Origin: Microcaldota archaeon
GTDB taxonomy: Archaea > Micrarchaeota > Micrarchaeia > Anstonellales > Anstonellaceae
Length of the DNA stretch: 58,148 nt
Direction of reading: 5' to 3'
Assembly (NCBI GenBank): GCA_026396415.1
Contig: JAPLWX010000038.1
Coordinates: forward strand, 1 to 58,148
In this document: piece by piece, positions 6,052-57,920 of the stretch
Layout: each line of letters opens with the position of its first letter
How positions within the stretch are numbered: the stretch's first letter is position 1
Translations under genes and position numbers: made by a program
Notes under the pieces: model-generated
Database searches by the model: none
Seen by the model: only the letters and a program-made list of their open reading frames with translations
What the model was told of the DNA's origin: nothing

Positions 6052-6266
6052 AATGAAACTGTGGCGGAAAATGCGGATCGAGCCGCCTTTCCTAGATATT
6101 CCCTATAGTCGTCTCTCTACTAAGCATACTTATTCGCTTAAAGAATTTTAAAATATCAAAGTAATAGATACACCTCATTTCCGCAGCAATCACTTCGTAG
6201 ACCCACCGGCATCCTACCCTAGGAACAGTTATATGCACGTTTCCCTGCTTGTTTGGGGGTGGGATT
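6052..6266 (+). promoter_or_regulatory. Intergenic region with promoter of the Cdc6 gene of element A
   Basis: This 215-bp gene-free stretch separates the defence operon from element A. A TATA-like AGTTATATG lies around 6227-6235. A strong purine-rich ribosome-binding sequence (GGGGGTGGG, 6255-6263) sits just before GTG 6267 and decides that start over TTG 6249. I saw no inverted repeat or attachment-site copy here. Confidence 0.45.
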
Positions 6267-7397
6267 GTGCGCGAGCTGTTCGAAGACAGGCATGGCGTCG
6301 AAAGCGCGTTAATACTCAAGGAATATGCGCTCACGCCTGCATACTACTCAACGGATGTCCTCCACCGCGAGGCCGAGCTGAAGGAAATCGCGGAAGCAGT
6401 CAAGCCGCTTCTTTATGGCAGGCAGCCTGAGAATCTCTTCATCCATGGCGACTCAGGCACCGGCAAGACAACCTGCGCTAAATACGTGTCAAGGAAGCTT
6501 GAGGAGCAGTCGGGCAACGTAAAGCCGGTTTACATCAACTGCTGGCAGTCCCTGACGCGCATGTCAGCCTACTCCAAGATTGCCCTGGCAATCGAAACCA
6601 TGCTTCCAAGGCGCGGCTGGGCGATTGATGAAGGTCTTGACCGGATAACGGAGGCGATGGAGAAGGAAAACGTGAGGGTGCTTATGGTGCTTGATGAGCT
6701 AGATGGCCTGTTTTTCCAGCACCAGGAGTGGCTTTTGTACGACCTTACCCGCATCAACAGCGAAAAGCCGCTGTTTTGCGTGATTGCCATTTCAAAGGAT
6801 AAGAATCTCCTGGCGAACAAGGACATTCGGATAAAGAGCTCGGTCAGGCTCAAAGACCTCGAATTCAAGCATTATAACGCGGCGCAGATAGCGGACATTT
6901 TGGAGGAGAGGGCGAAAATCAGCCTGAGGGATGGCAGCTACAATCGGAATGTCCTGGATGCCTGCGCTGCAAGGGCGTTTGCCCGCGAAAGCAATGCGCG
7001 ACTGGGCTTCGAATTCCTCTGGAGAGCCGCGAAGATTGCGGAAAGGGGCAACCGCAGCAAGATAACCTTGGAAGATGTCAAGGCTTCTGCTGAAAGGACA
7101 CTGTACGATGAAAAGGCACCCAAGCGCGTGGAGGATCTGGGCTTTGAGTTCATGAACGCGAGCCTGACCGATGAGGAGAGGCTCATACTCAGCATACTCA
7201 AAAATGGTGAAAAGACCTCCTCGCAGCTTTATGCCGCGTTTTGCAGGAAGATGACGCGCAGCAGCCGCTCGATTCGGAACTACCTGAGCAGGCTCGAGAT
7301 AAAACAGCTGGTCAGGATTGAAACCGTGCCGGACAACGGCTCAGGGTTTTCAACAAGGAAGATAAGGCTGAATATTGGGACTGGAAATGAAACATGA
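6267..7397 (+). CDS. cdc6: Orc1/Cdc6-family AAA+ replication initiator (element A)
   Basis: This roughly 376-residue AAA+ ATPase has HREAELKEI, Walker A GDSGTGKTT (about residues 60-70) and Walker B VLMVLDELDGLFF (about residue 138), followed by an ATPase lid and a C-terminal winged helix (residues about 300-370; SSRSIRNYLSRLE). The order is that of archaeal Orc1/Cdc6, which recognises origins and loads MCM. It is co-oriented with the histone-fold gene 3 nt downstream and lies beside an iteron cluster at 7613-7722. A diverged homologue occupies the equivalent place in element B (55669-56745), sharing the NCWQ.S.RM.IYS region after Walker A. I infer replication of the element rather than of the chromosome. 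Confidence 0.88.
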   Translation: MRELFEDRHGVESALILKEYALTPAYYSTDVLHREAELKEIAEAVKPLLYGRQPENLFIHGDSGTGKTTCAKYVSRKLEEQSGNVKPVYINCWQSLTRMSAYSKIALAIETMLPRRGWAIDEGLDRITEAMEKENVRVLMVLDELDGLFFQHQEWLLYDLTRINSEKPLFCVIAISKDKNLLANKDIRIKSSVRLKDLEFKHYNAAQIADILEERAKISLRDGSYNRNVLDACAARAFARESNARLGFEFLWRAAKIAERGNRSKITLEDVKASAERTLYDEKAPKRVEDLGFEFMNASLTDEERLILSILKNGEKTSSQLYAAFCRKMTRSSRSIRNYLSRLEIKQLVRIETVPDNGSGFSTRKIRLNIGTGNET

Positions 7398-7400
7398 TTT

Positions 7401-7595
7401 GTGAATTTAGCGCGGGGTGTGAACGTGGATTTTGCAATAAAAAACAGTGTAAAGATGTTCCTGAAAGGGCATAAGAAAAGGATGGCGAATGGCGTATGCG
7501 AAGCGCTGGACGCGGATATTGAAGCGACGCTGAGGAAGGCGTGCAAGCGGGCTGAAACGAACGGAAGATCAACCGTCATGCCGCTGGACCTGTGA
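7401..7595 (+). CDS. Small histone-fold protein (DUF1931-type archaeal histone)
   Basis: The gene encodes up to 64 residues starting at GTG 7401; GTG 7419 or 7425 are alternative starts. The sequence IKNSVKMFLKGHKKRM...ALDADIEATLRKACKRAETNGR-STVMPLDL matches the single histone-fold pattern of DUF1931-like proteins, where the last helix begins after NGRxTVMPxDL. Such proteins bind DNA as dimers. It is translated with the element's Cdc6 (3-nt gap), so a role at the nearby iterons, in origin architecture or in packaging of element DNA is plausible but inferred. Element B has no equivalent. Confidence 0.75.
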   Translation: MNLARGVNVDFAIKNSVKMFLKGHKKRMANGVCEALDADIEATLRKACKRAETNGRSTVMPLDL

Positions 7596-7612
7596 CGATG
7601 CTCCGTTTCATT

Positions 7613-7722
7613 GCGCTTACTTTCGCGCTTAATGTTCCCTGCTAGCTTCCGAAACTTGACAGTCGGTGAAGACTGCGCTTAATATGCGCTTAAAACGACG
7701 TTCTGGCTGCCAATTGCGCTTA
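7613..7722. repeat. Iteron-like array, five GCGCTTA repeats (candidate origin of element A)
   Basis: Five direct copies of GCGCTTA begin at 7613, 7625, 7675, 7686 and 7716, the last overlapping the VirB4 stop codon. Spacings are 12, 50, 11 and 30 bp, so two pairs lie one helical turn apart. They fill the gap between the convergent histone and VirB4 genes, next to Cdc6. The position fits an initiator-binding site. Element B has a different iteron in the same place. Confidence 0.6.
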
Positions 7723-10700
7723 TTTCGCGCGTTTCGCTCTCAGATAATATTTGTGTGCTATCTCTTCTACTATGCTATCAATATCCGCGCGCGTTATCGT
7801 CCTTGCTATCTGCGAGTACTTGTCCTTCATGAGCCGGTCGGTGACAAGGATAACCGTTTCGTCAAACTCCTTCTGCCGTGACTCAATCCTCCGCTTAAGC
7901 TCTTCCGCATCGCCAAGCATGTTGTTTCCTGTTTCTACCTCAAAGCAGATCCTGCACTTGCCGATTGAGACCAGCACATCTGAATTTCCGCCAGCATCCA
8001 CCACCGCTTTTATCCGCTTGGACTTGAACCTGTCTGCGATTGCCCAGCAGAACAGCGCGTGCTCTGCCGTTTCGTTCCCCTGCGTTTTCACCAGGTAATA
8101 TGCGGAGCCCTCGTGCGCGCCCAGCTTGTCCTTGTGCAGCACGTAGCCCTCCTTGCGCAGGGTCTGTGCCTGCTTCTCGCTTATCTCGCTTAGCCGATAG
8201 TAGCCCTTGGATAGGTTTATCTTGACCTCCTCCTTGGCATATTCGCTCTCCTTTTCCTCGATGATTTTTTGCGCCTCATTGGGATCCGTAGTTATCAGTG
8301 CGTGGATCAGTGGAGGCGCCACTGTGAAGAAACGGTAATGCCCTTCCTCAGTTATCAGGATGCCGTGTCCCTTGTTTGCCCTAAGCAGGAAATCCTTCTC
8401 GCTATCGTTGAGCTTGAGCCCTTTTGAGACCAGTTCCAGGTTGCTCGGGTTCTGGCGCATGAGAATCTTTGTGGAAGTCGTGTTTAGGATGCTTCTTCCA
8501 CCATCGCTTTTCAGCAGGTCTTCTATTTCCTGCGTGATGAAGCCGATTGAGGCGTTGTATTTGCGGGAGGTCTTGATGAATTCCAGGATGTAGTTTTCCG
8601 CCTCGTGGCTGCGCAGCAGGGACCAGCCCTCGTCTATCAGCACCACCTTTGGCTTGTTGTCCTTCCTTATTTCTCGAGCAACCAAATCAAGCACAACGAA
8701 CATCATCAGCTTCTTTACAGGGCCTGGAAGCCTGCTGAGGTCAAAATCCACGAACTCGCTTTTGAGGTTTATTTTGGTCTGCTTGTCAAGGAAGCCGAAA
8801 AAGCCGCCCTTGCTGTACATCCGCACCCTGTTGAGAAGTACTTCCACGCTCCTGTCCTCAAGGAAGGACTTGCGCCTGTTCGATTTCTTGAGCACGCTTT
8901 CCAGCACCAGCTTGAAGTCGCTGAAAGTCGGCGGCTTCTTTTTCCAAGTGGCTGGCTTGTCGTAAACTATGCCCTTCTTCAGGTAGACGCCCAACAGCGC
9001 CTCATTGAGAACTCCCTTCTGGCTTTCCGTCAGGCCGCCGGAAATGATATCGAAAACTGATATCAGGGAAATCATCTTGCTTCCGAAATCCTCGCTTCCG
9101 AAGTCGAAGACGTTTATGATTGAGTCGGAGTCCTTGGAAAGCTCCACCACCTCGCCGTTCAGTTTTTTGGTCAGTTCCTTGTACTCCGCGTTCGGGTCGA
9201 GGATGTAGACCCTTGCCTCGTCGTTTATCAGGTGCTGGATTGTGAGGTATTTTGAGGTGTAGCTTTTTCCTGAGCCGGAGATGCCAAGCACGAAAAAGTG
9301 CTTGTTGCTCATGGAATCGAAGTCAACAAACAGGGGGTTCTTGGTCTGTTCTTCATGGGCGAACATCACCCCCTTTCTCTTTGTGCTTGCGGGGGATATG
9401 AAAGGGAAAGTGGCTGTGAGGGGGCTTGTCAAAAATTCCCTGTGCGATTCCAGCGCGTCGGTTCCGAGCGGAAGCGTGGACTTTATGCCCTCCGCCATGC
9501 GGTACTTTGCCACCTTGGGGATCATCAGCATGGCATTGAGGTTGGCGTTGCATTTCTCGGTCAACAAATCAAGCTTTCCAAGGTCGGCTTCCTTGTTGTC
9601 AAGGTAAAGCGAGACGCGGAAAAGCTTCTCCTCGCCCTTGTAGAGCTGCTCGTATGTCCTCATCGTGTCGTTCTTCTTTATCTCCAATGCCGGGTTGGGC
9701 GTGCCTTTTGCGGTGCTCATCATCAGATCCGCGGTTTGCCGGATTATCTGGTTGTGCAGAAGCACAAGTGTTTGGGTAATCGTGGACGGGTGGATGTGAA
9801 GCGAGATGTCGTAGCCCTCGTTTTTCCCAAGAAATGAGCGGAGCCAGCCGTCCTCAACTTTCCTTGGGTAGCCGGTTACCTTTACTATCCGGTGGAATGT
9901 CTCGTTTACCCTTGCCTCTTCCGGCTTGACCTCAAACGTAGGCGTAAGCATAAAACGAAAGATGTCCTTCATCGGGTTGTCGCTTTCCACTTTCCTTTTT
10001 GGGAAGAGTTTGGAGAACAAGCCAGGTTTTGGCTTTTTCTGGGCTACTTTCGCGGGGGCTGTTTCATCTTTGTATTCGGAATATGAGAATAGCAAGGCGA
10101 TTAACTGGTCGTTGCCAAGGCGGTTTGCTTCCAGTCCGCAGCCAGAAATTTTCTCCATCATTATCTGAACCTGCTGGTCAAGCTGCTTCAGTTCGTTATC
10201 TTGCCCAACCGTACCTTTTCCCATGCGTTTTTTCGGCTGGTGGGTGACAATCAGGTAGTAATGGCGCTCCTTTACCTTGTTTTCCTCCATGAACTTTTCC
10301 TCGAAGATACGGAAATCGGTGTAAAGCGAGCTGAATTCGCGCACCGAGTTCTGGAACTTCTTTTCCTGCGCCTCGAAATAGCCGTCCAAACGGGCGTCGG
10401 TTGTCCTTACCAGAACCTGTATCGGCTGGACAAGATGGTTGAGGAATTCCCGGTAATTGGATATGAGCGACTTTTTCCTTTCCTCGTCAAGAAGCTCGAA
10501 GTTCACAGGGTAAACCTGGAGGATTGCGCGCATCGCCCCGCTGTCAAGGTAGATTGTGCTGTCCTTTATCGCCTTTACACCTATGAAATGCTGTGCCTTC
10601 GGATCTTCGGGTGAGGCTTTTCGGATGTTTTGGTTGTATGCTATGGCATCAAGGAGCTTTTCCTCTATATTCAGGAACGCGAAAGCCAGGCCGGTTAGTG

Positions 10701-10863
10701 CAAATACTGCAGGCAGCACTAAACGGAACTCGCCTTCAAGCGGCAGGTTGTAGGCAAGGATAGCCATTACCCCAAAAAGCACGGCAAAGCCTAGCTGCTT
10801 GAGGTCAAGATTAAGGATAATCTTCTCTTTGTACTTTATCTCGTCTGGAATATCGTAGCCCAT
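7720..10863 (-). CDS. virB4: VirB3-VirB4-like conjugation ATPase with C-terminal nuclease-like domain (element A)
   Basis: This 1047-residue protein starts at ATG 10863, where MGYDIPDEIKY matches the homologue in element B. Residues 1-65 carry a PrgI/VirB3-like segment (DLKQLGF followed by two membrane helices). The VirB4 body has Walker A GISGSGKSYTSKYL near residue 525 and Walker B KVVLIDEGWSLL near 738, followed by QEIEDLL and ILMRQNPSNL, typical of VirB4/TraC. Residues about 910-1047 form an extra domain with AEHALFCWAI, SDVLVSIGKCRICFEVETG and VILVTDRL. Its Asp...Glu-x-Glu arrangement recalls PD-(D/E)xK nucleases. It would power pilus assembly or DNA transfer at the membrane. It is the last gene of the minus-strand operon. 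The nuclease assignment is inference. Confidence 0.85.
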   Translation of the reverse strand: MGYDIPDEIKYKEKIILNLDLKQLGFAVLFGVMAILAYNLPLEGEFRLVLPAVFALTGLAFAFLNIEEKLLDAIAYNQNIRKASPEDPKAQHFIGVKAIKDSTIYLDSGAMRAILQVYPVNFELLDEERKKSLISNYREFLNHLVQPIQVLVRTTDARLDGYFEAQEKKFQNSVREFSSLYTDFRIFEEKFMEENKVKERHYYLIVTHQPKKRMGKGTVGQDNELKQLDQQVQIMMEKISGCGLEANRLGNDQLIALLFSYSEYKDETAPAKVAQKKPKPGLFSKLFPKRKVESDNPMKDIFRFMLTPTFEVKPEEARVNETFHRIVKVTGYPRKVEDGWLRSFLGKNEGYDISLHIHPSTITQTLVLLHNQIIRQTADLMMSTAKGTPNPALEIKKNDTMRTYEQLYKGEEKLFRVSLYLDNKEADLGKLDLLTEKCNANLNAMLMIPKVAKYRMAEGIKSTLPLGTDALESHREFLTSPLTATFPFISPASTKRKGVMFAHEEQTKNPLFVDFDSMSNKHFFVLGISGSGKSYTSKYLTIQHLINDEARVYILDPNAEYKELTKKLNGEVVELSKDSDSIINVFDFGSEDFGSKMISLISVFDIISGGLTESQKGVLNEALLGVYLKKGIVYDKPATWKKKPPTFSDFKLVLESVLKKSNRRKSFLEDRSVEVLLNRVRMYSKGGFFGFLDKQTKINLKSEFVDFDLSRLPGPVKKLMMFVVLDLVAREIRKDNKPKVVLIDEGWSLLRSHEAENYILEFIKTSRKYNASIGFITQEIEDLLKSDGGRSILNTTSTKILMRQNPSNLELVSKGLKLNDSEKDFLLRANKGHGILITEEGHYRFFTVAPPLIHALITTDPNEAQKIIEEKESEYAKEEVKINLSKGYYRLSEISEKQAQTLRKEGYVLHKDKLGAHEGSAYYLVKTQGNETAEHALFCWAIADRFKSKRIKAVVDAGGNSDVLVSIGKCRICFEVETGNNMLGDAEELKRRIESRQKEFDETVILVTDRLMKDKYSQIARTITRADIDSIVEEIAHKYYLRAKRAK

Positions 10864-10868
10864 GGCAA

Positions 10869-11813
10869 TCACAGCGCGGCGTAAATCATCGGCAAAGCCA
10901 TCCACTTCAGAGGCCCCATCGTTTGGAGAACCGGCTCGACAACTGAAAGGATGGCGATTGCGAAAAGCGCAAGGTTGAGTAAGCCCACCAGCCCGAAGCC
11001 GAGCATCACAGCCATTGACTTGACGAATGAATCAAGCAGATTGGGATCCGGCGAGCTGAACAGCGAGGCAAGCCCGGCAATGAAAACCGCGTCTATTGCC
11101 GTCATGAATACGATTATTGCTATTATTTTGAGAAATGCGCCTCCCCACGCCTTTCCGAATGGCATGAAGTAGAGGAATATTGAGATTGGGAAAAGCAGTA
11201 GCAAGAACGGAATAAGCAAATAGCGGATAAGCAGCGTGAAGAATGTAATCCCTGCCGTGAAAAGCAACCCTCCGATTATCACAAGCGCGAATATCAATGA
11301 GGCAAAGGACATGTTCGCATTGAATACGCTTGCCACGGATTGGGTAATTAAAGAGGTCGAAATGTACTGGTTGAGCGAAAGCAGCATATCGAACAGGTAA
11401 AACGAGAACGTGAGTATCACTATCATGAAGAAAACGTCCTTGAGCATCATCTTTGCCCTTACCCTGCCTTCCACGTCCGGCGCCTGGATGATATAGTAAA
11501 ACCCTACGCCCATCAGCGCGATTGAGTAAAGGCTCTCCAAAAGCGCCATCACCTGCGTGTAAGGCGCGCAGAACCAGTGCGGATCGGGCGAGGCGGTAAG
11601 AAATCCTATTGCCGAATTGGTGAACTGCTGGCTTGTGTAAACCATGCCAGTTGCCAAAGTCGTAAGGAAAGACTCGGTTATACAGGCCGGAAGGTTATTG
11701 AGAACTGCCAGTATGTCCGTGTTGTTGGCGCACGAGCTTGGCGGCAGCGTCACATTCATTGAGGCGTTCTGGATCGCCATGAGCGCAAGGATGCCGAATA
11801 GGAAAAGCCTCAT
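10869..11813 (-). CDS. VirB6/TrbL-like polytopic membrane protein (element A)
   Basis: The protein has 314 residues from ATG 11813, exactly the length of its element B homologue. A signal peptide (MRLFLFGILALMAIQNAS) precedes a lumenal/extracellular stretch containing FLT.SPDPHWFCAPY, followed by about six membrane helices, including LLIRYLLIPFLLLLFPISIFLYF. The layout fits VirB6/TrbL inner-membrane channel components, and the neighbours (VirB4 5 bp downstream, VirB2-like genes upstream) support this. Family assignment is by topology and context rather than a diagnostic motif. Its start overlaps the upstream 504-residue gene by 4 nt (ATGA), so the two are translationally coupled. Confidence 0.75.
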   Translation of the reverse strand: MRLFLFGILALMAIQNASMNVTLPPSSCANNTDILAVLNNLPACITESFLTTLATGMVYTSQQFTNSAIGFLTASPDPHWFCAPYTQVMALLESLYSIALMGVGFYYIIQAPDVEGRVRAKMMLKDVFFMIVILTFSFYLFDMLLSLNQYISTSLITQSVASVFNANMSFASLIFALVIIGGLLFTAGITFFTLLIRYLLIPFLLLLFPISIFLYFMPFGKAWGGAFLKIIAIIVFMTAIDAVFIAGLASLFSSPDPNLLDSFVKSMAVMLGFGLVGLLNLALFAIAILSVVEPVLQTMGPLKWMALPMIYAAL

Positions 11814-13324
11814 TTTAGCAGCCTCCTTGCCAGTCTGTAAAGCAGATATGCGATGAGAAGCGCGGTTGCGATGTACCAAAGCGTGGAGAAGAAATCCGGC
11901 TCCTTGGTTGGAATGATGTATATTGCCCTTGCGCTCTTGGTTTCAAAGTCGGTCAGGAATTCAGCGTAAACCGTGCTTGTTGCTGGCGTGTAATTGAATT
12001 GCGCGTATGCCTCGCCAAGGGAATCTGTTGTTATTGACTGGTTCTTGCCTGCATAGTATAGGGCAATTTGCTTCTGTGCAAGCGGGGAGCTAGTCCCATT
12101 GTCATAAAACCTGACTTTCAAATGGAAGGTTGAGTTTGTCCTGTTCGTTAAATTGAGCGCGATTATGGGCGTTTGGTTCAATTCTGGGCAAAAGGTGCCG
12201 TTTTGCCAGCTTCCAAAATGCGAATTGACCTCAAAAGTGCAGTTTAGGCTAGCCGTGCCTACCTGGAAGTGGGTTTTTTCGCTGTAAATGGTAGTTTCAT
12301 TGATTTCCCTGCTTAGGGGCACTATGTTGTAGATTTGCGCCTTCCTGCTCGGGTGCGCTGCGGGCGTCAGGATGTTATAGGGCGCAAGGCCATACGCCAG
12401 ATTATATTCCCTGTTTTTCACTTTCAGGTATGAGTTGCCAACCGAAAGCCCAAAGTTGCTGAAATCCGCGTTGGACGAATAGGAAAACCAGCCATCAAGC
12501 AACCCGTCCTTGAAAGAATCCACCATTGAACGCTCGGTGTGGTTGAAGGCATAGTAAGAGGCGCTTTTGCTGTCCGACGCGCTCGCTGAATCGTGGATGT
12601 CGTCCGTGCCAACATAATCGCAAGTGGTGTAGCAATGAGTAATGCCGTTTGAAGTGTAGCAGTGCGTAACCAGATGGGAGTGATGGATGAGATATTGCGA
12701 GTTTGCGTTGAGCGTGGACATGAACACATTCGGAACCTGAGAAACGCTGAAGTTTGACTTTGTGCCTGCGCCGATGCTTTGTCCGTTGAGGTAGTTCTGT
12801 ATTCCGAAGTTATAGCCGCAGACAACGTATTGCGTGTTGCAATCGCTCGGGAAAGTCTGATGCTCGATGACAAAGCTAAGCGCGGCTTGGGAGTAAAGCT
12901 CGCCCGTGGAATTCACGAATAGACTCGAATTCTCAATAACCGAAGGCGAAAGCGAGAGGATGCGCACCCACGCGCCCTTGATGTTGTTCGAGTTTACTAT
13001 GGTAGTGTTGTCGGGCGCGTATTTCGTGAACTGGAGCGCGTAATTCCAGTTCTTGGACTCGTTGAAATCCGGCAAGCCGTTATTCCGTATGAGATTGTCG
13101 GTTATCAGCATTTTCTTCTGGTCGTTCGTAAGATTGCCGAGATGGTCGCAGATTGTCGGATCAACAAGGTTGAGGTTATGGCAGTTGTCAATCAGCGAAT
13201 CCGCAGGCCTAGCAGGTGGCGCGTTGCTGCTCGCCCAGGTAAAGTCATGGTAAGGGTAAGCCGGGCAGGTCGGTATGGCTTGCGCTAGCGCGGGAAGCAG
13301 GAGGAGAAGGAGCAGCCGTTTCAT
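11810..13324 (-). CDS. Secreted, membrane-anchored 504-residue protein, specific to element A
   Basis: An N-terminal signal peptide (MKRLLLLLLLPALAQA) leads to a large exported domain rich in N-x-S/T sequons and cysteines. A C-terminal helix (FFSTLWYIATALLIAYLLY) with a basic tail follows. The topology is that of a surface protein with one anchor. Near residues 395-455 an Ig-like segment (TNRTNSTFHLKVRFYDNGTSS...ALYYAG...FNYTPATSTVYAEF) is visible. I do not recognise a family. It sits inside the VirB operon, overlapping both neighbours by 4 nt, and is absent from element B. A role in target-cell contact or as surface tip of the transfer machine is inferred only from that position. Confidence 0.8.
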   Translation of the reverse strand: MKRLLLLLLLPALAQAIPTCPAYPYHDFTWASSNAPPARPADSLIDNCHNLNLVDPTICDHLGNLTNDQKKMLITDNLIRNNGLPDFNESKNWNYALQFTKYAPDNTTIVNSNNIKGAWVRILSLSPSVIENSSLFVNSTGELYSQAALSFVIEHQTFPSDCNTQYVVCGYNFGIQNYLNGQSIGAGTKSNFSVSQVPNVFMSTLNANSQYLIHHSHLVTHCYTSNGITHCYTTCDYVGTDDIHDSASASDSKSASYYAFNHTERSMVDSFKDGLLDGWFSYSSNADFSNFGLSVGNSYLKVKNREYNLAYGLAPYNILTPAAHPSRKAQIYNIVPLSREINETTIYSEKTHFQVGTASLNCTFEVNSHFGSWQNGTFCPELNQTPIIALNLTNRTNSTFHLKVRFYDNGTSSPLAQKQIALYYAGKNQSITTDSLGEAYAQFNYTPATSTVYAEFLTDFETKSARAIYIIPTKEPDFFSTLWYIATALLIAYLLYRLARRLLK

Positions 13325-13743
13325 GATGAGGCACCCCCCGTTTCCTCGCGGTCATAGATGCTCATGATTACCATCTTGGGCTTGTCCTTTGTGCCCTTTT
13401 TGCCATAGTAGAAACTGAAGTGGAAGCCCGGAATCTGAAATATCCCGTCGTGGACTATGACCACGCGCTTCCTTGCCACCCTTGCAAGCTCGTCAATCCA
13501 TTTCTGGCGCTCAACCAGCCTGTCGTTCATCGGCACATGGCCGATTATGGCAGTGTCGAACGACCTGTCCAAGAAAGGCAAGCAGTGACAATCAGCCCAT
13601 TTGATGCCCGGATCCAGGGAAAACTGGTCTGTCCGCACGTCCCCTAGCTTGTTGCCCCCGCAATTGACGTGCAGAACCGTGCCGATACAGAAATGGTACG
13701 GATCTTCGTCTTCCTCTGGTTCTTTCCTGTTTTTCAAACGCAT
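13321..13743 (-). CDS. Minimal class I SAM-dependent methyltransferase-like protein
   Basis: The protein has 140 residues. VLHVNCGGNKLGDVRTDQ resembles motif I plus the acidic end of strand 2 in Rossmann methyltransferases, ADCHCLPFLDRSFDTAI matches the motif of type-11 methyltransferases, and ELARVARKRVVIVHDG gives the next strand. It is only about half the usual length, covering the core strands and ending after an acidic tail. Cysteine replaces the usual Gly-Cys-Gly order (NCGGN), so activity is uncertain. It overlaps the following gene by 4 nt and lies 9 bp after the small VirB2-like gene. It is missing from element B. Substrate unknown. Confidence 0.65.
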   Translation of the reverse strand: MRLKNRKEPEEDEDPYHFCIGTVLHVNCGGNKLGDVRTDQFSLDPGIKWADCHCLPFLDRSFDTAIIGHVPMNDRLVERQKWIDELARVARKRVVIVHDGIFQIPGFHFSFYYGKKGTKDKPKMVIMSIYDREETGGASS

Positions 13744-18441: not shown

Positions 18442-18491
18442 GCTTCCTTTCGTGCCTGGTCTTGAATATTTGCCTTGCCGCAGACGCCACG

Positions 18492-46465: not shown

Positions 46466-46489
46466 GTGGTTTACTACCGGATTATTTCA

Positions 46490-49380: not shown

Positions 49381-49454
49381 GTTTTCACCATCTAAGATTG
49401 GGTTTCCTGGGCATAAAAACCTTCTGACCCGTAGAAATACCCCTCCCTGGCACA

Positions 49455-49509
49455 TTAATCCCAACTTCTCCACGCTGCATAATCTCACCCCTGCCCTATC
49501 AATAAGTGC
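49455..49509 (+). promoter_or_regulatory. Promoter of the methyltransferase-VirB operon (element B)
   Basis: TGCATAATCTCA (TATA at about 49476-49483) is followed by ACCCCTGCC and AATAAGTGCATGG, mirroring the element A promoter over about 60 bp including GCACAnTAAT upstream. The remaining part of the 129-bp divergent gap belongs to the cargo gene and shows only short A/T-rich stretches. Confidence 0.6.
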
Positions 49510-50585: not shown

Positions 50586-50587
50586 GC

Positions 50588-50812
50588 ATGGCATTCGATT
50601 TTGTCTCGCTTGCCAACAGCCTCAAGACAATTGCCGTCTTCCTTGCCACCATCACCATAGCCTATGCGGGCTTTTCGCTTGTCACTAACAGGAGCCCCGA
50701 GCAGCGGAACGAATGGAAGGAGATAATCGCGGGCGTTTTCATAGGCATCGTACTCCTTTACCTCGTCCCGCTCATAGCCGCGCAGCTCGGCGGCGGCTCG
50801 TATTGCGGGTGA
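50588..50812 (+). CDS. VirB2/TrbC-like small membrane protein 2 (element B)
   Basis: The protein has 74 residues from ATG 50588. Two helices (IAVFLATITIAYAGFSLV and IAGVFIGIVLLYLVPLIAA) flank TNRSPEQRNEWKE; the end is GGGSYCG. It matches the 71-residue protein of element A in length, loop and C terminus. It begins 2 nt after the stop of pilin candidate 1 and ends 4 nt before VirB6. Confidence 0.7.
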   Translation: MAFDFVSLANSLKTIAVFLATITIAYAGFSLVTNRSPEQRNEWKEIIAGVFIGIVLLYLVPLIAAQLGGGSYCG

Positions 50813-50816: not shown

Positions 50817-51761
50817 ATGGAAAAATCATATATCGCAATTATTGCATTCCTCCTCCTTGCAGGCACCTCCCACGCAGATTCAACCAACTCCACGAACTAC
50901 GGAGATCTCATAAGCGCGCTCACAACCGGGCTTACAAACCTCCCCGGCAAGATAGTTGATAGCTTCTTCTCTTACGCTGTTTCGGGCCTTATCTCCTCCT
51001 CGCATCAGCTCGTGGACTCGTCCTTCAAGTTCATGTTCTCAACCCCCAACCCCATGTGGTTCTGCACCCCTTACAACGGGGTAATGGCGATAGTGGAAAG
51101 CCTCTACTCGCTCACTCTGATGGGGCTTGCGCTCTACTTCATATTACGCTCTAACGACGCAGAAGGCAGGGCTAGTGCGAAAAAGTGGATGGAGAACATG
51201 CTCGTAATGGTCGTGATACTCACCTTCTCATTCCAAATCTTCAGAACAATGCTGGATTTCAGCACCTTCCTTGCAACAAGCGCGGCAAGCGAGTCCATGA
51301 AAAGCATCTTCACAAGCCCTCTCAGCTTTTCCACATCCATCTTCTCGCTTGTCATCCTCATCCCGGCAATCTCAGGCATGTTCCTGACCTTCCTGACCCT
51401 CCTGCTCCGCTACCTGCTCATCCCGTTCCTGCTTTTCCTCTTCCCGTTTTCAATTTTCCTCTATTTTACGCCCCTGACGCAGCGATGGGGCAAGGCATTC
51501 CTGAGCATAATAGTCGCAATAGTCTTCATGACGACTTTCGACGCACTCATACTCCTTGGGCTAAGCTCGCTGTTCAATTCGCAAGACCCCAACTTGGCAG
51601 ATTCGCTTGCGCGCGCGTTCGCCGTGCTTTTCGGCTTTGCCGCGATTGGATTAGTCAATCTGCTAATCTTCATCCTGTCAATCCTTTCCATAATACTACA
51701 GAACAACACCGTAAGGAGCGTGTTGGGATTTGCAGTGGCTGGGAAGGTGCTGACAAGGTGA
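50817..51761 (+). CDS. VirB6/TrbL-like polytopic membrane protein (element B)
   Basis: The protein has 314 residues, the same length as in element A. A signal peptide (SYIAIIAFLLLAGTSHA) precedes an exported segment with FSTPNPMWFCTPYNG and about six membrane helices, including LLRYLLIPFLLFLFPFSIFLYF and FLSIIVAIVFMTTF. The FCxPY element and the positions of helices are conserved with A. It would form the membrane channel of the transfer apparatus together with VirB4 (5 bp downstream). Confidence 0.77.
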   Translation: MEKSYIAIIAFLLLAGTSHADSTNSTNYGDLISALTTGLTNLPGKIVDSFFSYAVSGLISSSHQLVDSSFKFMFSTPNPMWFCTPYNGVMAIVESLYSLTLMGLALYFILRSNDAEGRASAKKWMENMLVMVVILTFSFQIFRTMLDFSTFLATSAASESMKSIFTSPLSFSTSIFSLVILIPAISGMFLTFLTLLLRYLLIPFLLFLFPFSIFLYFTPLTQRWGKAFLSIIVAIVFMTTFDALILLGLSSLFNSQDPNLADSLARAFAVLFGFAAIGLVNLLIFILSILSIILQNNTVRSVLGFAVAGKVLTR

Positions 51762-51765: not shown

Positions 51766-54700
51766 GTGAGCTATGACATACCGGACGAAATCAAGTACAG
51801 GGAGAAAATCGTCTTCGGGCTTGACCTGAAGCAGCTTTGCTATCTCTGCCTTTTCGGGCTGCTTGCCTTCCTATCGCTCAGCATCCCAATAAAGGGCCAG
51901 GCGGTGCTCATTCTCCCTTCTTTCTTTAGCATTCTCGGAGTAGGCTTCATCTTCTTGAATCTGGAGGAGCGTGTGCTAGATGCCTGGCACTATTACGGAG
52001 AAGTGAGAAAAGCACCCTCATCAGACAAAAAAGCGCAGCGGCTGATGGGAATACACGCGATTGAAAACAATCAAATGATTCTCGTAGATGGCTCATTGCG
52101 CGCGGTCCTGCAAGTAGAACCAATAAACTTCAGCCTGCTGGACGAGGGGCAGAAGACAGCATTCGTTTCCAATTACAGGGAATTTCTCAACCATCTCACC
52201 GACTCCGTACAGATACTTGTCAGGACTGAAAAATCGGACGCGGAAGACCTGTTTGCCGAAGCGCAAAGCAACCTTGAAGGCGCCGAAACCGAGATAGCCT
52301 CCTTCTTCCGCGACTTCTTCACGTTCGAGCGCGAGTTCATGGAAGCCAACAACGTGAAAAGCAGGCGATACTATCTTGTAGTGGCGCAGCAGAAGCGCGT
52401 GGCGTTGGGAAAGGGAAATGCAGAGGAGGAACGAAAACAGCTCGACCAAAAGGCGCAAATAATACAGGAAAAGCTCTCGGCGTGCGGGCTTCGTTCGGAG
52501 CGCCTAAGCAGCGCAAGACTAACGCGCCTCTTCACATCATACTCGGTGGCGGAAAACGAAGAACAGGAGAAGGAAGCCGAGACGAAAAAGGGCAATCCGC
52601 ACATCAATTCGCTAATCTGGCTCATAATCAAGACCAAAATAGATATAGCCGCATTTTTCGCTCCAGTATCCGCAAATCACGCCAAAAAGGAAAAGCAGGT
52701 GAAAGAACCCGAGTCAGAGCGCGCGTCCTCCCTTATCGAAGAAATAACGCCCGACTTTGACATCTCAATATCTCACGCGGGCGTCAACGGGATACGCCAC
52801 CGCATAATCAAGGCGGTGGGGTATCCTCGCAATGTGGAGGACGGCTGGCTCGAGCAGTTCATGGCGACGAGCGAGCCGTACGACGTTTCCATACACATCC
52901 ATCCCGCAAGCATCAGCCGCACCCTTGTAAACATCCATAACCAGATAATCAGGCAGACATCCGACCTCCTTTCGGGCAACGCGGAACACACACCCAACCC
53001 AGCATTGGAGATAAAGCGCAAGGACACGCTGAAGGTCTACGGGCTTCTCTACAAAGGCAAGGAGAAGATGTTTGACGTTTCACTCTATGTAGACAACCAG
53101 GCGCGCGACTTAGAGGAGCTTGCGCTCATGGAGGAGCGCTGCAAAGCAAACATGAACGCCATGCTCATAGTGCCGAAAAGGACGGACTTTCGCATGGCGG
53201 ATGGCATAAAATCAATGCTTCCGGTGGCGGTGGACGCGCTCGAAGCGCGCCGGGAATTTCTTACAAGCTCGCTCTGCGCCACCTTCCCGTTCCTCTATCC
53301 GGTGGACTCGCGCGGCAAAGGCACGTTCTTCGCGCACGAAAGGAGAACACTGAACCCGCTTTTCATAGACTTCGACGCAATGAGCAACAAGCACTTCTTC
53401 GTCCTTGGCATTTCCGGCTCGGGCAAGAGCTACGCGGCGAAATTCCTGCTCATGCAGCACATCCTCTCAAGGGAGGCGAAAATCTACGTCCTCGACCCTA
53501 ACGCGGAGTATTCGGGCCTGGTAGAGCGGCTTGGTGGCACGGAAATAGATCTTTCCAAGGACTCGGACAAGATTATCAACCTGTTCGACCTGGCAGGGGA
53601 GGACTTCGGAAGCAAGATGCTCACGCTCATTTCGGTATTTGACATAATAACCGGGGGATTGAGTGAAAGCCAGAAGGGAGTGCTCAATGAAGCGCTCGTG
53701 CGCGTTTACAGAAAGAAGGGCATAGACGCGGCAAACCCAGGCAGCTGGGAAAGGAAAGCGCCCACGTTCAGCGACCTGAAGGGCATACTGGAGGACATGA
53801 AACGAAGGGTAAAGAGGCGCACGCAATCGCCCGAGGAAAAGAGCGTGGAGGTGCTGCTCAACAGGGTTCGGATGTACTCGCGCGGAGGCTTTTTCGGCTT
53901 CCTGGACAGGGGGACGAAGGTGGACTTGAACAGCGGGGTGCTGAGCTTCAACCTGAGCAGCCTTCCACCGCAGGTGAAGCAGCTTGTGATGTTTTCTGTG
54001 CTGGAGCTGGTTTCGCGCGAGATGCGGAAGGACAAAAAGCCCAAAGTAGTGCTTATTGATGAGGGTTGGTCGCTTCTGCGCAGCAAGGAGGCTGAGGACT
54101 ATATACTGGAATTCATCAAGACCTCGCGCAAGTTCAATGCTTCGATAGGCTTCATAACACAGGAGATAGAGGATTTGATGCGCAGCGAAGGCGGAAGAAG
54201 CATACTCAACACCACCTCTACGAAAATACTCATGCGCCAGAATTCGAGCAACCTTGACCTGATTTCCAAGACGCTCGCTCTCAACGACAGGGAGCGGGAC
54301 TACTTATTGCGCGCGGAAAAGGGCCAGGGATTGATGATAAACGAGCAGGGAAGGTATGAATTCATAGTGAAGGCGCCGCCGATGATAAATGCGCTCATCA
54401 CGACCGACCCGAACGAAAAGCGCCCAGAGGGGATGCCTGTAATGGAAAAGAAGAAGGAGAAAAAGGATGCGGGAGAGATGGATTGCGCGTGCGGGTTCTA
54501 TCTGGAAAGCGAGCTAAGCGACGCTCAAAAGGACTTTTTGGCTACCGAAGGGTTCGTCTACCATCGCAGCCACCTTTTCGATGCCAAAGGGAGCCATAGG
54601 TTTGTGGTGAGGCGACAGCCGCAGGAGTCGCCCGAACACTCGCTTTTGTGCTGGGGGATAGCAGAGGAGATAAGGAAGCATGGAGGCAGGCCGGAGGTGC

Positions 54701-54957
54701 TTGCCACGGTTGGCGCGGACGTTTCAGTGAAGGTTGGGAAGAGGAGGATTTGCTTTGAGGTTGAGACGGGCAGCAATCTTGACTCCTATGATGAGGAGCA
54801 CGTTAAGGCAAAGTTTGAGGAAATAAGAAAGGAATACGATATGCTCATTGTGGTGGTGACTGACAGGAAGCAGCGGGGGAAGTACGAAAAGATTGCGCGC
54901 GCGAAGGCGATAACAAGGACTGAGGTGCCGGAAGCAGTGGCAAGGCTGTTCAGATAG
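51766..54957 (+). CDS. virB4: VirB3-VirB4-like conjugation ATPase with C-terminal nuclease-like domain (element B)
   Basis: The protein has 1063 residues from GTG 51766. It contains a PrgI/VirB3-like N terminus (SYDIPDEIKYREK, two membrane helices), Walker A GISGSGKSYAAKF (about residue 546), Walker B VVLIDEGWSLL (about 760), QEIEDLM and ILMRQNSSNL. The extra C-terminal domain (about residues 910-1063) repeats the features of A: SPEHSLLCWGI, ADVSVKVGKRRICFEVETG, VVVTDRK. Conservation of Asp, Glu-Val-Glu and the flanking strands in two diverged copies supports a functional nuclease-like fold. The middle linker around residues 280-330 differs strongly from A. Confidence 0.86.
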   Translation: MSYDIPDEIKYREKIVFGLDLKQLCYLCLFGLLAFLSLSIPIKGQAVLILPSFFSILGVGFIFLNLEERVLDAWHYYGEVRKAPSSDKKAQRLMGIHAIENNQMILVDGSLRAVLQVEPINFSLLDEGQKTAFVSNYREFLNHLTDSVQILVRTEKSDAEDLFAEAQSNLEGAETEIASFFRDFFTFEREFMEANNVKSRRYYLVVAQQKRVALGKGNAEEERKQLDQKAQIIQEKLSACGLRSERLSSARLTRLFTSYSVAENEEQEKEAETKKGNPHINSLIWLIIKTKIDIAAFFAPVSANHAKKEKQVKEPESERASSLIEEITPDFDISISHAGVNGIRHRIIKAVGYPRNVEDGWLEQFMATSEPYDVSIHIHPASISRTLVNIHNQIIRQTSDLLSGNAEHTPNPALEIKRKDTLKVYGLLYKGKEKMFDVSLYVDNQARDLEELALMEERCKANMNAMLIVPKRTDFRMADGIKSMLPVAVDALEARREFLTSSLCATFPFLYPVDSRGKGTFFAHERRTLNPLFIDFDAMSNKHFFVLGISGSGKSYAAKFLLMQHILSREAKIYVLDPNAEYSGLVERLGGTEIDLSKDSDKIINLFDLAGEDFGSKMLTLISVFDIITGGLSESQKGVLNEALVRVYRKKGIDAANPGSWERKAPTFSDLKGILEDMKRRVKRRTQSPEEKSVEVLLNRVRMYSRGGFFGFLDRGTKVDLNSGVLSFNLSSLPPQVKQLVMFSVLELVSREMRKDKKPKVVLIDEGWSLLRSKEAEDYILEFIKTSRKFNASIGFITQEIEDLMRSEGGRSILNTTSTKILMRQNSSNLDLISKTLALNDRERDYLLRAEKGQGLMINEQGRYEFIVKAPPMINALITTDPNEKRPEGMPVMEKKKEKKDAGEMDCACGFYLESELSDAQKDFLATEGFVYHRSHLFDAKGSHRFVVRRQPQESPEHSLLCWGIAEEIRKHGGRPEVLATVGADVSVKVGKRRICFEVETGSNLDSYDEEHVKAKFEEIRKEYDMLIVVVTDRKQRGKYEKIARAKAITRTEVPEAVARLFR

Positions 54958-55583: not shown

Positions 55584-55664
55584 GTCGCGCCAAAGTCGCG
55601 GCTTTTTGCTTATATACTGGGCGCGACTATGTGCAGGAGGCGATGTCGCGGCTAAGGTCGCGCC
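55584..55664. repeat. Iteron-like array, five GTCGCGSC repeats (candidate origin of element B)
   Basis: Direct copies lie at 55584 (GTCGCGCC), 55595 (GTCGCGGC), 55645 (GTCGCGGC) and 55657 (GTCGCGCC), with an inverted copy at 55620-55627 (GGCGCGAC). The pairs are 11 and 12 bp apart, with the inverted copy in between, a quasi-symmetric layout. They end 5 bp before the Cdc6 stop codon, the same relative place as the GCGCTTA array of element A. Confidence 0.6.
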
Positions 55665-55668
55665 AGAA

Positions 55669-56745
55669 TCACAGATTGGCAAGCTGTATCATCCTGGTAT
55701 TCAAAAGCGGGCTTCCACCATCAATCGTTTGTATGTTCAGAACCTTCTTTGCCTCAAGTTCGTGGAGATAGTTTCGTATTTGCCTCTTGCTCCGTTTCAG
55801 CTTCCTGGAAAAAGCCAGGTAAAGGTCGGTCGAGCTTTTCGGGCCGGTTTTCACTATTTCAAAAATCACTTGTTCCTCATCGCTTAACTTGACTTGGGGA
55901 ATTGCGGAGTGTCCCTCAAGCTGCCCCACTGCTCCAAAAGAATTGCATTTATCCGTCGCCTTGACATCTTCAAGCGTTATCTCCGCCCTTCCGACTTTCT
56001 CGGCATTCTTTGCCGCGCGCCACAGCAAATCCAAGCCGTTCCTCACGTTGCTTTTCCTTGCAGCCATCTTTTCAGCGCAGGCTTCGATAACCTCCTTGCC
56101 CCAGCTGCCAGGCGCCAGACCCATAATTGCCCTTTGCTCCAAGATGTCTTCCAATTCAGCAAGGTTGTAGTGCTTAAATTCCAACTGGGAAAACCTAACC
56201 TCGCTTCCAACACCTTTGCTTGCCATCAGGTTTCCATTATTTGATATGCATATTGAACCGAAGAACGGCTTTCCCTTACCCGCCCTTTCAATATCGCAAA
56301 GCAGATGCGCCTCACCGTGGAAGAAAAGCCCGTCAACATCATCCAGCACAAGGAGTATCCGCGTTCCCTCCTTTTCCATAAGCTCGATTATCCTGTCGAA
56401 TACCTCATCCCGCGCTAAGCCTCTGCGCGGCATCATCTCCCCCAGTGCTCTTACAATGAGGGAATAGATTGCCATTCGGGTGGAGTGCTGCCAACAGTTC
56501 ACATAAATTAGCTTCACGCGCGAGCTTTTCCTCTCAAGCCCCTTCAGAATCTGCGTTATAACCGCAGTTTTGCCGGTTCCAGGGTCTCCAAATATGAAAA
56601 GGTTGTCTGGTTGCCTGCCTTCAAATAGGGGCTTTATCGCCTCGCTAATATCCTTTGTTTCCATCTCCCTGTGAATGAGGCTGTTCGGGCAATGCCCAGC
56701 CATCAGAGCCTCTTCCCTGGTTATCACTAAGCCCATTCTTACCAT
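55669..56745 (-). CDS. cdc6: Orc1/Cdc6-family AAA+ replication initiator (element B)
   Basis: The protein has 358 residues from ATG 56745; ATG 56736 (MGLVITREEAL) is equally possible. Walker A FGDPGTGKTAV (about residue 52) and Walker B ILLVLDDVDGLFF are followed by sensor and lid regions and a C-terminal winged helix (KLKRSKRQIRNYLHELEAKK). It shares with the element A protein GRQP.NLFI.GD.GTGKT, YVNCWQ, MPRRG, LEFKHYNLAE and GLDLLWRAAKNAE. It lies in an operon with two membrane protein genes upstream and probably initiates replication at the adjacent iterons. Confidence 0.87.
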   Translation of the reverse strand: MVRMGLVITREEALMAGHCPNSLIHREMETKDISEAIKPLFEGRQPDNLFIFGDPGTGKTAVITQILKGLERKSSRVKLIYVNCWQHSTRMAIYSLIVRALGEMMPRRGLARDEVFDRIIELMEKEGTRILLVLDDVDGLFFHGEAHLLCDIERAGKGKPFFGSICISNNGNLMASKGVGSEVRFSQLEFKHYNLAELEDILEQRAIMGLAPGSWGKEVIEACAEKMAARKSNVRNGLDLLWRAAKNAEKVGRAEITLEDVKATDKCNSFGAVGQLEGHSAIPQVKLSDEEQVIFEIVKTGPKSSTDLYLAFSRKLKRSKRQIRNYLHELEAKKVLNIQTIDGGSPLLNTRMIQLANL

Positions 56746-56759
56746 CTCAATACATTACC

Positions 56760-57302
56760 TCAACCCGGAACTGTTATGTTCAGGTCGGAATTCGCGCTTC
56801 TGTTCATCCCCACGGGCAGTGGGGCATTAGTGCAACTTGCTTTGAGAGCTGCAAAATCATCGCAGCACTTGGAGCAGGAAGTGAAGAGGTTCGCGTTGCT
56901 TACAAATGTGGTATAAGCCAAATACGCAAAGAACAACAACGAGAGGCAGACAAGGAAGAAGAGGATTGAGGGAATTATGGAATTTCTTGAGATGCGCATG
57001 TATATTGCCATCCCGTTTGCCACAACGAAGGAATAGACTCCGATTGCGGTTAATAGCGAAATGACTGAATAATCCGCGTTTTGGAACGATACAACCCAAA
57101 TCAGCGCAATGAAGCACACGATCTCAAGCGTTTTGTAGATGTAGAGGTGCGCGCGGCGTGCTTTCAGCAACGTTCTCATTATGGGATTAGCCTCAAGCAC
57201 CCAACCCTTCTTTTCCGTGCACTTTAGCGTGAAGAAGAGGTCTGATGCCCACAAGAGGATGAAGAAAACAGACAGGATGGCGACAAATGGCAGTATGAAC
57301 AT
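56760..57302 (-). CDS. Four-helix membrane protein (DUF5658-like)
   Basis: The protein has 180 residues with helices at about 3-25, 55-75, 78-98 and 108-132. DLFFTLKCTEKKGWVLEANPIMRTLL after helix 1 is the D-x-x-x-T ... E-A-N-P arrangement of small DUF5658-like membrane proteins. The C-terminal tail (about 45 residues, CSKCC plus another Cys, N-x-S) would be outside. Function unknown. It is encoded 3 bp after the coiled-coil/TPR protein and 14 bp before Cdc6, so it belongs to the same transcript of element B. Confidence 0.65.
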   Translation of the reverse strand: MFILPFVAILSVFFILLWASDLFFTLKCTEKKGWVLEANPIMRTLLKARRAHLYIYKTLEIVCFIALIWVVSFQNADYSVISLLTAIGVYSFVVANGMAIYMRISRNSIIPSILFFLVCLSLLFFAYLAYTTFVSNANLFTSCSKCCDDFAALKASCTNAPLPVGMNRSANSDLNITVPG

Positions 57303-57305
57303 GTT

Positions 57306-57920
57306 TTATGCCCCCTTCCGCTTCTTGCGGACTTTCTTGTATGCCTCCTTGGCTTTCTCGAATTTGCCAGCCTTTGCGTAATATTCAGCCGCGTTCTTGT
57401 GATCCCCCTTGGAGTCTGAGATATGTGCGGCTTCCTCGAACTTCCCAGCCTTTACAAGCTGTTTTATCTTCCCATTCTCTGGCTTGCTTTCCTTCCTTGT
57501 TGAGCGGAGTTTCCAGAACATGAAGCCAATGCCCAATGCTCCTATTACTGCCGCAATCCACATCAATATCTGCACGATGATATTCGTTTTCGCTGAGTTT
57601 GCCGTTCCTAAACTCTCTTGTGCGCCAGCCTGCACGGTTCCAAGCTCGCTGAACGCCTGGTCTGACTTGTCTAGGAAATCGCCCAAGCTGGTTGCGCTTT
57701 TTGCCAATCTAACCGTTGCCTGAGCGTTTGAAAGGTTGGCCTGGGCATCGGCGAGCTGCTTCTGTGCCGCCGCCACCTTGACAGTGTCGGCTCCGTATGT
57801 GCCACCTGCACTTGAAGTGGCGTTCTTTGCGAGTTCAATTGCCTTTTCCGTCTCCTGCATCTTTGCATCAAGCGCAGCTGAGATGGTGTCTTTCATCCTC
57901 TCCGCTACCCTGCCCAGCAT
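57306..57920 (-). CDS. Coiled-coil membrane protein with TPR-like tail, N terminus uncertain
   Basis: The protein has at least 204 residues from ATG 57920. Residues 1-110 are a heptad-rich exported helix (AAAQKQLADAQANLSNAQATVRLAK), then comes a membrane helix (IIVQILMWIAAVIGALGIGFMFW), then a cytoplasmic TPR-like tail (LVKAGKFEEAAHISDSKGDHKNAAEYYAKAGKFEKAKEAYKKV). The frame stays open upstream to 58049 with protein-like sequence (EKFRSEAQNELSSGYCSQSV) but offers no ATG, GTG or TTG, so the 5' end may be damaged by the palindromic insertion at 58031-58130 or use a rare start. An assembly or docking factor is possible. Confidence 0.65.
   Translation of the reverse strand: MLGRVAERMKDTISAALDAKMQETEKAIELAKNATSSAGGTYGADTVKVAAAQKQLADAQANLSNAQATVRLAKSATSLGDFLDKSDQAFSELGTVQAGAQESLGTANSAKTNIIVQILMWIAAVIGALGIGFMFWKLRSTRKESKPENGKIKQLVKAGKFEEAAHISDSKGDHKNAAEYYAKAGKFEKAKEAYKKVRKKRKGA

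Follow-up and report, generated by a model that had tools for sequence, protein, structure and literature searches.

The 58,148-nucleotide contig JAPLWX010000038.1 of a Microcaldota archaeon (GCA_026396415.1; hereafter the window) was found to contain two copies, A and B, of a real, mobile and apparently undescribed family of elements, which is a variant of the archaeal integrative-conjugative element (ICE). A occupies the window left of position 20040 and B right of position 46451, around a chromosomal segment; the mirror orientation that a preliminary description had given them was confirmed by long inverted repeats. The shared core consists of an integrase, small proteins, a methyltransferase, two pilins, a VirB6-like protein, a PrgI/VirB3-VirB4 protein and a convergent Orc1/Cdc6. 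The reading of A and B as integrative elements is strongly supported, because attachment (att) repeats lie at tRNA ends, empty sites were found in congeners, presence is patchy, several copies occur in one genome, and the backbone is more alike across species than the chromosome.

The window is the entire contig C47 of the source genome G000 (1.74 Mb, 52 contigs, 92% complete, Ca. Micrarchaeota), and the data were a metagenome assembly without reads. C-numbers denote contigs of G000 and L019 denotes the element in the congener G008.

Copy number, integration sites and exchange between species

Two copies had been described at first; at least six VirB4 copies were found in G000 (A, B, C19, C15, C42 and C21), those of A and B being 52-54% identical. 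The VirB4 family was present in one of nine congeners (G008) and, patchily, in 12 of the 245 Micrarchaeota genomes sampled across the phylum. All VirB4 relatives in GTDB were labelled Ca. Micrarchaeota or uncultured archaeon, from which the host is taken to be a micrarchaeon (DPANN), and a scan of the viral contigs of IMG/VR returned none. Signs of fixed chromosomal genes were looked for; closely related species were found to differ in presence, and each delimited copy contained an integrase, in keeping with the integrative element first proposed. The contig ends were found to be exact 103-137-bp repeats, shared by window 58014-58147 and C17:142-275, by the starts of C47 and C42, and by the ends of C42 and C21. 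The assembly therefore breaks at repeats, and the number of element copies may be under-counted.

The integrase of A was found to adjoin the 3′ end of a tRNA-Gly gene, which was undetected by Rfam and ARAGORN, with the 12-nt att core CCGGCGGTCGCA at 20029-20040. The second copy of the core, identical to the tRNA-Gly 3′ end, was found in the same orientation at C36:1904-1915, directly after the single G000 orthologue of a 332-333-aa gene. The congeners G004, G006 and G007 contained this gene, the tRNA-Gly gene and a 220-aa gene (orthologue of the window gene at 20339) contiguously, as an empty site. Because the second att copy adjoins the G000 orthologue of a gene next to the tRNA in congeners, A is taken to span C36 from about position 1904, an assembly gap and the window up to position 20040. 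The boundary earlier placed at 6052 was given up, since A extends to the left through the NOV_C and HmaB/HmaC cargo (175-6051) to the distal att on C36, where the cargo also contained a type IIG restriction-modification (RM) enzyme.

The element of C21 contained a 14-nt repeat (CCCGTTGGGAGCGT) at 18658 and 31480, which is exactly the tRNA 3′ exon (T-stem, acceptor and discriminator), and the element of C19 contained a 17-nt repeat at 2041/38215, which is a tRNA 5′ end. The integrases of L024, L026 and L027 were found to adjoin tRNA-Leu 3′ ends. The tRNA 3′ exon was the integration end for the A, C21 and tRNA-Leu groups, and the 5′ end for the B and C19 group. No convincing exact-match att repeats were found for C15, L017, L022, L024, L026 and L027 in the DNA examined, beyond which their distal ends may lie.

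For B, a candidate att with a 21-nt match on C43 was found. The shorter sequence GGGGTCGTGGCGTAA occurred at C18:45979, C20:23529, C20:24548 and C43:3831; its occurrences on C18, C20 and C23 were set aside as att of B, as only the C43 match extends to 21 nt. The copies at C18, C20:24548 and C43 were followed by a similar ...CTGGGGTC(A/T)T.GAG stretch, and for two copies a homologue of an element cargo gene was found no more than ~2 kb away. The copies may represent remnants of att sites, or else a family of intergenic repeats. A two-gene unit at C43:3964-5248 (L083), resembling an AbiE toxin-antitoxin pair as read from its proteins, was flanked by two copies resembling the tRNA-Trp 5′ end (3831 and 5344).

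The T-loop intron of tRNA-Gly was found to match many places in G000 (C24, C20, C40, C50, C35, C25 and C21) and in contigs of G001, and the matches resemble a spreading family of T-loop tRNA introns. The att core of C21 coincides exactly with the short 3′ exon that follows an intron of this kind; the observation is relevant to the proposal that integration is blocked by tRNA introns (PMC3293823).

A and L019 were found to share 86-98% DNA identity through the methyltransferase, pilins, surface protein and VirB6, and 90-98% across orc1, against 79-82.5% for the chromosomal DNA of the two species. Across VirB4 only, the identity dropped to 56-81%, with breakpoints near the gene ends; on this alignment VirB4 has been replaced as a unit. 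A promoter-like boundary repeat of ~72 bp was found upstream of the methyltransferase in A, B, C19, C15, C42 and L019. It was also present ahead of VirB6 and/or VirB4 in C42 and C15, and as a partial match ahead of VirB4 in C19 and C21, in each case where cargo precedes these genes; A and B, whose cores are uninterrupted, lacked it before VirB6/VirB4. A reading as an archaeal integron was set aside, because the repeat precedes core genes and satellite integrases (see below). The cargo of C19 was found to include a zinc ABC transporter and a type I RM system, and the internal defence operon of A matched PDC-M68B (5e-174) and PDC-M68A (7e-75) in PADLOC.

Putative transfer genes, nuclease-like domain and satellites

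VirB2, VirB3, VirB4 and VirB6 form the core of conjugation machines. The VirB4 ATPase and the mating-channel genes were found in both A and B by profiles, and VirB6 by topology only. The assignments made earlier for the integrases with zinc ribbon, the methyltransferases, the two VirB2-like proteins, VirB3-VirB4 and Orc1/Cdc6 were borne out by profile or alignment. The VirB6-like protein was found to be multi-spanning and conserved in all copies carrying the gene, and was matched by no profile. A winged-helix protein, also announced earlier, was not recovered by Pfam in A or B; a related small protein in sister elements gave weak winged helix-turn-helix matches only. The best profile matches of VirB4 were CD1110 (8e-81) and the mycoplasma ICE (7e-70), followed by CedB at 3.9e-11 (42 bits against a cut-off of 700). 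A sequence search of the PDB with VirB4 returned only the Thermoanaerobacter VirB4 (4ag5), and searches with VirB6, the surface protein, the pilins and the nuclease-like domain returned nothing significant.

The two elements had been described as sharing one gene set. This was upheld for the core, and the Cys-rich surface protein of A (384-580 aa, conserved in A-type elements) was found to be absent from B. Its AlphaFold2 (AF2) model was of low confidence (predicted local distance difference test, pLDDT, 53). Instead of this protein, B, C19 and C15 contained a protein with four transmembrane (TM) segments and, beside orc1, a surface protein of another build. The surface gene of B is incomplete at the contig end, where B runs off the contig, and the intact homologue in C15/C19 has 609-638 aa.

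No relaxase or VirD4 had been recognised in either copy at first. The coupling protein VirD4/T4CP (type IV coupling protein; PF02534) was found to be absent from the whole of G000, with control genomes positive, and no relaxase family was found among the element proteins scanned with Pfam, which is a narrower scope. The HerA/TrwB-like ATPase between A and B was rejected as the missing coupling protein, as it is chromosomal and widespread in Micrarchaeota and so not element-encoded; it could act as a host factor for the elements. Its wide distribution, with the partial synteny of the segment in G008, agrees with the chromosomal origin first given to the segment. No structural virion proteins (capsid, portal) were found when 10 proteins were searched against PHROGs, the cargo being only partly scanned, and only VirB4 was matched, under a 'terminase' label, via its P-loop.

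The last ~170 residues of VirB4 (window 7720-8265 in A and 54406-54957 in B) were found to form a separate domain (AF2 pLDDT 85). As had been anticipated for this C-terminus, the Foldseek ranks contained, at weak E-values, mostly PD-(D/E)xK enzymes, among them the nickase N.BspD6I, Can2, Hjc and RecU. The motif E..D..(E/D)VETG was conserved in 17 sequences of the domain, and the free form described below was matched by no phage record.

The iterons noted earlier were recovered as five GCGCTTA at 7613-7722 in A and as GTCGCG pairs in B. The A-type site contained the motif TTAAGCGCA-N3-TTAAGCGCA in an 11-12-bp phase, with two pairs in most channel-bearing elements (hereafter helpers) and one pair in satellites. 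Four elements (A, L017, L018 and L019) contained the paired motif immediately 3′ of virB4, and four satellites (C17a, C17b, C31 and that of G008) contained it 3′ of their free-domain gene; the TAAGCGC pair was found nowhere beyond those eight loci in 0.92 Mb of fetched DNA (overlaps included). GTCGCG pairs in B and C19 and CGTGTAAAA pairs in C15 were all of A-type geometry. In L018 the iterons adjoin virB4 and orc1 is 5.5 kb distant, so the site follows the gene of the nuclease-like domain. The iterons of A are proposed as an ori/oriT-like site. Tandem Repeats Finder detected nothing at the iterons, because the units are spaced pairs.

Free copies of the nuclease-like domain with an N-terminal TM segment were found on C17 (two), C31 and C44. 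On C17 and C31 the free-domain gene immediately follows that of a 399-aa integrase, which shares 53-59% identity with the helper integrases, and is itself followed by the iteron pair. The unit, conserved over ~2.6 kb, has the tRNA-Leu 3′ end CTCCCTGCA as its outer end; two units in tandem on C17 give an element of ~8.3 kb, and the C31 element is ~6.5 kb. Both C17 copies and C31 are counted as satellites, as they contained their own integrase, no transfer channel, and an iteron pair and boundary repeat in common with helpers. The boundary repeat (80 bp) before the satellite integrase was 84-89% identical to that of A. The pair of integrase and free-domain gene was also found in G008, G013 and G018. 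The site common to satellites and helpers may be a mobilisation signal.

The cargo of the C31 satellite contained a reverse transcriptase (L088:3836-4969, RVT_1 2.3e-17) and a Dam-like gene, the latter by sequence reading. Open frames homologous to this reverse transcriptase were also present in a full-size element of another genus (L024:13191-14283).

Proposed mechanism and competing explanations

Integration, copy number, spread between species, modular exchange, the anatomy of satellites and the sites common to satellites and helpers are shown by the sequences; excision, replication, transfer, nicking and the dependence of satellites on helpers are steps that we infer. The tyrosine integrase would insert the element at the end of a tRNA gene, and the excised circle would be maintained by the element's own Orc1/Cdc6. 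DNA would reach a neighbouring cell through a reduced type IV machine of two VirB2-like pilins, a VirB6-like channel and a VirB3-VirB4 motor, which may be joined by the surface protein in A-type elements, and the co-operonic methyltransferase might mark the element DNA against restriction. Because VirD4 was not found in the genome, both jobs are proposed for VirB4: its C-terminal domain would recognise and nick the paired-iteron site, as an analogue of relaxase and oriT, and would hand the DNA to the fused motor. Satellites would hitch a ride on helpers by means of their integrase, the membrane-anchored free domain, the common iteron pair and the promoter-like repeat. It is considered reasonably probable that A and B are integrative conjugation-type elements in which the VirB4 nuclease-like domain and the iterons form a transfer-start module, with satellites riding on helpers. 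The more specific proposal, that a VirB4 with its own site-specific nickase at an iteron origin provides a relaxase-free and VirD4-free archaeal conjugation, which satellites exploit via a free nuclease copy, site and promoter, is put forward tentatively.

Several points weigh against this account. No circle, transfer or nicking was observed in the metagenome assembly. The Foldseek E-values of the C-terminal domain are weak (best 1.4e-3), and the usual ExK lysine was found to be replaced by Glu. The iterons of B adjoin orc1 rather than virB4, those of satellites are oppositely oriented relative to the domain gene, and Orc1/Cdc6 could equally be the iteron binder. The exact iteron pair was missing in the satellites of G013 and G018, and no full-length helper was found in G013 (78% complete) at E<=1e-50. 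The C21 element contained no recognisable pilins, VirB6 or Orc1, the name VirB6 is drawn from topology, conservation and position, and the scan for relaxase families covered element proteins.

The iterons may instead be a replication origin for Orc1/Cdc6 and the 64-aa protein, with the VirB4 C-terminal domain and its free copy acting in entry exclusion or in the destruction of competitors, and with satellites using the helper Orc1 in trans for replication and moving by unknown means. Iterons beside initiator genes are classical, as is seen for B, and an exclusion determinant would be expected to behave as VirB4 does, being swapped between otherwise near-identical elements, and as the free domain of G013 does, which has changed more quickly than its integrase (59% vs 89%); a TM anchor would suit a recipient-side role. 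This explanation is nevertheless judged unlikely, though it deserves serious weight, since orc1 of L018 lies 5.5 kb from the iterons, satellites contain iterons yet no orc1, and a domain fused to a motor ATPase is more in line with substrate processing than with exclusion.

Two further explanations dispense with conjugation. A domesticated DNA-import system for uptake and repair, of the Ced/Ted type and by chance in genomic islands, would have the same minimal parts (VirB2, VirB4 and VirB6, with no relaxase or VirD4; PMC9905601), but every delimited copy has an integrase and att as its borders, the system occurs patchily in the genus, one genome contained six diverged cargo-bearing copies, and VirB4 matched CD1110 and the mycoplasma ICE far better than CedB; it is regarded as extremely improbable. 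A type IV secretion system (T4SS) on mobile islands for protein secretion or host interaction in an epibiotic life, as proposed for Patescibacteria, is considered very improbable. The T4SS_pilin and VirB4/VirB6 sets resemble those of Patescibacteria, which are mostly relaxase-free (PMC12102498), and the Cys-rich surface protein could contact host cells; yet no conserved effector was seen, most relatives live without the system, so that it is not needed for the lifestyle, and the methyltransferase, Orc1 and iterons point to DNA, with defence or transport genes as cargo.

Features of the window and relation to known systems

The features are collected in the table. Relatives of the 64-aa protein of A (L024:15656-15850 and L027:13467-13661) gave weak histone, CENP-X and DUF1931 matches, and the protein is possibly a mini histone-fold DNA-binding protein. 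Between A and B, five related Cys-rich proteins of ~530 aa were found in a row at 32851-41619; their family is unknown (one was tested, with no Pfam match), the row is partly missing at the syntenic place in G008, and more copies were found on C43, G004 and G001.

Table. Positions of features in the window (A, B: elements A and B).
Feature	Position	Strand	Evidence
Left cargo of A, between its orc1 and the distal att on C36	1-6051	+	
NOV_C protein, A cargo	175-606	+	Pfam
HmaB DUF1156 methylase, A cargo	603-3314	+	PADLOC HmaB 4.9e-249
HmaC DUF499 ATPase, A cargo	3316-6051	+	PADLOC HmaC E 0
Orc1/Cdc6, A	6249-7397	+	Cdc6_lid 1e-15, AAA; 99% to G008 element
64-aa protein downstream of orc1, A	7401-7595	+	A copy without profile match
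Paired iterons just 3′ of virB4, A	7612-7722	-	TTAAGCGCA...TTAAGCGCA, two pairs 11-12 bp apart; five GCGCTTA
VirB3(PrgI)-VirB4 ATPase with C-terminal PD-(D/E)xK-like domain, A	7720-10905	-	P-loop_TraG 3.5e-23, PrgI 2.6e-4; start may be 10863
VirB6-like multi-spanning protein, A	10869-11879	-	97% to L019, 42-48% to B; no profile match
Cys-rich surface protein, A	11810-13324	-	Signal peptide, N-glycosylation-motif-rich ectodomain, C-terminal TM (alignment, TM/sequon scan)
140-aa protein, A	13321-13743	-	Weak methyltransferase-like match, Methyltransf_11 0.024
Second VirB2/T4SS_pilin-like protein, A	13753-13968	-	Translation, paralogue family alignment
First VirB2/T4SS_pilin-like protein, A	13971-14279	-	T4SS_pilin 5.8e-7; signal peptide, C-terminal CGW
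N6/N4 DNA methyltransferase, A	14276-15115	-	N6_N4_Mtase 5.7e-48
Boundary (promoter-like) repeat at cargo/core junction, A	15111-15163	-	nhmmer 2.9e-8, blastn
ABC-3C/PDC-M68-like defence operon, A internal cargo	15198-16937, 16930-17160, 17157-17933	-	Pfam DUF2326, MC6, CTD10
Two small conserved proteins (64 and 115 aa), A	18041-18579	-	Homologues in B, C42, L017, L024-L027
Tyrosine integrase, A	18735-19991	-	Phage_integrase 3e-19; weak C-terminal zinc-ribbon match
tRNA-Gly(GCC) with anticodon-loop and T-loop introns, attachment gene of A	20029-20221	-	Read from sequence; syntenic tRNA in congeners
Chromosomal segment between A and B	20339-46231		Part syntenic in G008
HerA/TrwB-like ATPase in this segment	43212-45938		Present in 14 of 21 genomes searched
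tRNA-Trp(CCA) with intron	46356-46465	-	Rfam tRNA 52.5 bits, anticodon read from sequence; B adjoins its 5′ end
Candidate att of B	46452-46472		21 nt identical to C43:3832-3852
Tyrosine integrase, B	46466-47785	+	Phage_integrase 3.5e-17, weak C-terminal zinc ribbon; tRNA-5′-end group with C19
Small conserved protein, B	48366-48560	+	Homologue of A 18041-18235
Cargo-slot protein, B	48550-49524	-	Matches no known family
Boundary repeat upstream of core operon, B	49461-49514	+	nhmmer 2.4e-7
N6/N4 DNA methyltransferase, B	49510-50283	+	N6_N4_Mtase 2.9e-30
VirB2-like pilin 1, B	50280-50585	+	TrbC 1.1e-4
VirB2-like pilin 2, B	50573-50812	+	T4SS_pilin 6.3e-10; Mbov_0395 pilin-like family 1.9e-5
VirB6-like protein, B	50817-51761	+	81-86% to C19/C15/C42 copies; no profile match
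VirB3-VirB4-nuclease-like protein, B	51766-54957	+	P-loop_TraG 2.1e-25; conju_CD1110 7.9e-81; C-terminal structure model
Iteron pairs, B	55584-55662		GTCGCG at 55584/55595 and 55645/55657; geometry as in A, sequence different
Orc1/Cdc6, B	55669-56745	-	NCBIfam TIGR02928 9.2e-55, above cut-off
4-TM protein and C-terminal part of surface protein, B	56760-57920	-	

Archaeal conjugative plasmids and ICEs are without a recognised relaxase (PMC9905601, PMC6563490, PMC12857230). The thaumarchaeal ICEs (Krupovic 2019, PMC6563490) resemble the present elements in being integrated, in VirB4 and VirB6/VirB3 homologues, in the absence of a relaxase, in the Orc1/Cdc6 of some, and in empty sites between close strains. 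They differ in a median size of 64 kb, in mostly having VirD4/TraG, and in TFIIB, ParB, FlaI/PilT and TadC, whereas the Micrarchaeota elements contained no VirD4 and are marked by a VirB3-VirB4-nuclease-like fusion, VirB2-type pilins, an operonic methyltransferase and satellites. The pNOB8-type plasmids of Sulfolobus and the Thermococcus plasmid pT33-3 likewise represent relaxase-free archaeal transfer on VirB4-type ATPases (PMC12857230), but encode VirD4-like proteins and no recognisable pilin (PMC9905601), whereas the present elements are a multi-copy family integrated at tRNA ends.

Among bacterial systems, the mycoplasma ICE (Mbov_0395/0397) and the CD1110-type Firmicute ICE gave the best profiles for VirB4 and pilin 2 and have a minimal apparatus; mycoplasma ICEs carry VirD4 (PMC12857230), whereas the Micrarchaeota elements have an archaeal integrase, Orc1 and the nuclease-like fusion. 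The Ced/Ted systems share the minimal VirB2/VirB4/VirB6 set but are domesticated for import (PMC9905601), and the Patescibacteria T4SS, similar in T4SS_pilin, VirB4, VirB6 and a mostly absent relaxase, is chromosomal, widespread in its phylum (PMC12102498) and not integrase-bounded. Bacterial integrative mobilisable elements are, like the satellites, small, integrase-bearing and thought to use the transfer machine of a helper; they bring a relaxase or oriT, whereas the satellites bring a membrane-anchored VirB4 nuclease-like domain and the helper iteron pair. Literature searches, with subscription journals and bioRxiv outside their coverage, returned no description of these elements or satellites.

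For the start of archaeal conjugative transfer, the family offers a concrete candidate in a motor-fused nuclease-like domain and a defined DNA site, and the satellites, which keep almost nothing but this domain and site, represent a natural dissection of a minimal mobilisation module. If the proposed mechanism is true, it would add a new mode of initiating conjugative DNA transfer; judged by the literature searches, no archaeal helper-satellite conjugation system would have been described before it. The family would also be a means of moving defence systems (Hma, ABC-3C, type I and IIG RM) and a zinc transporter among DPANN archaea.

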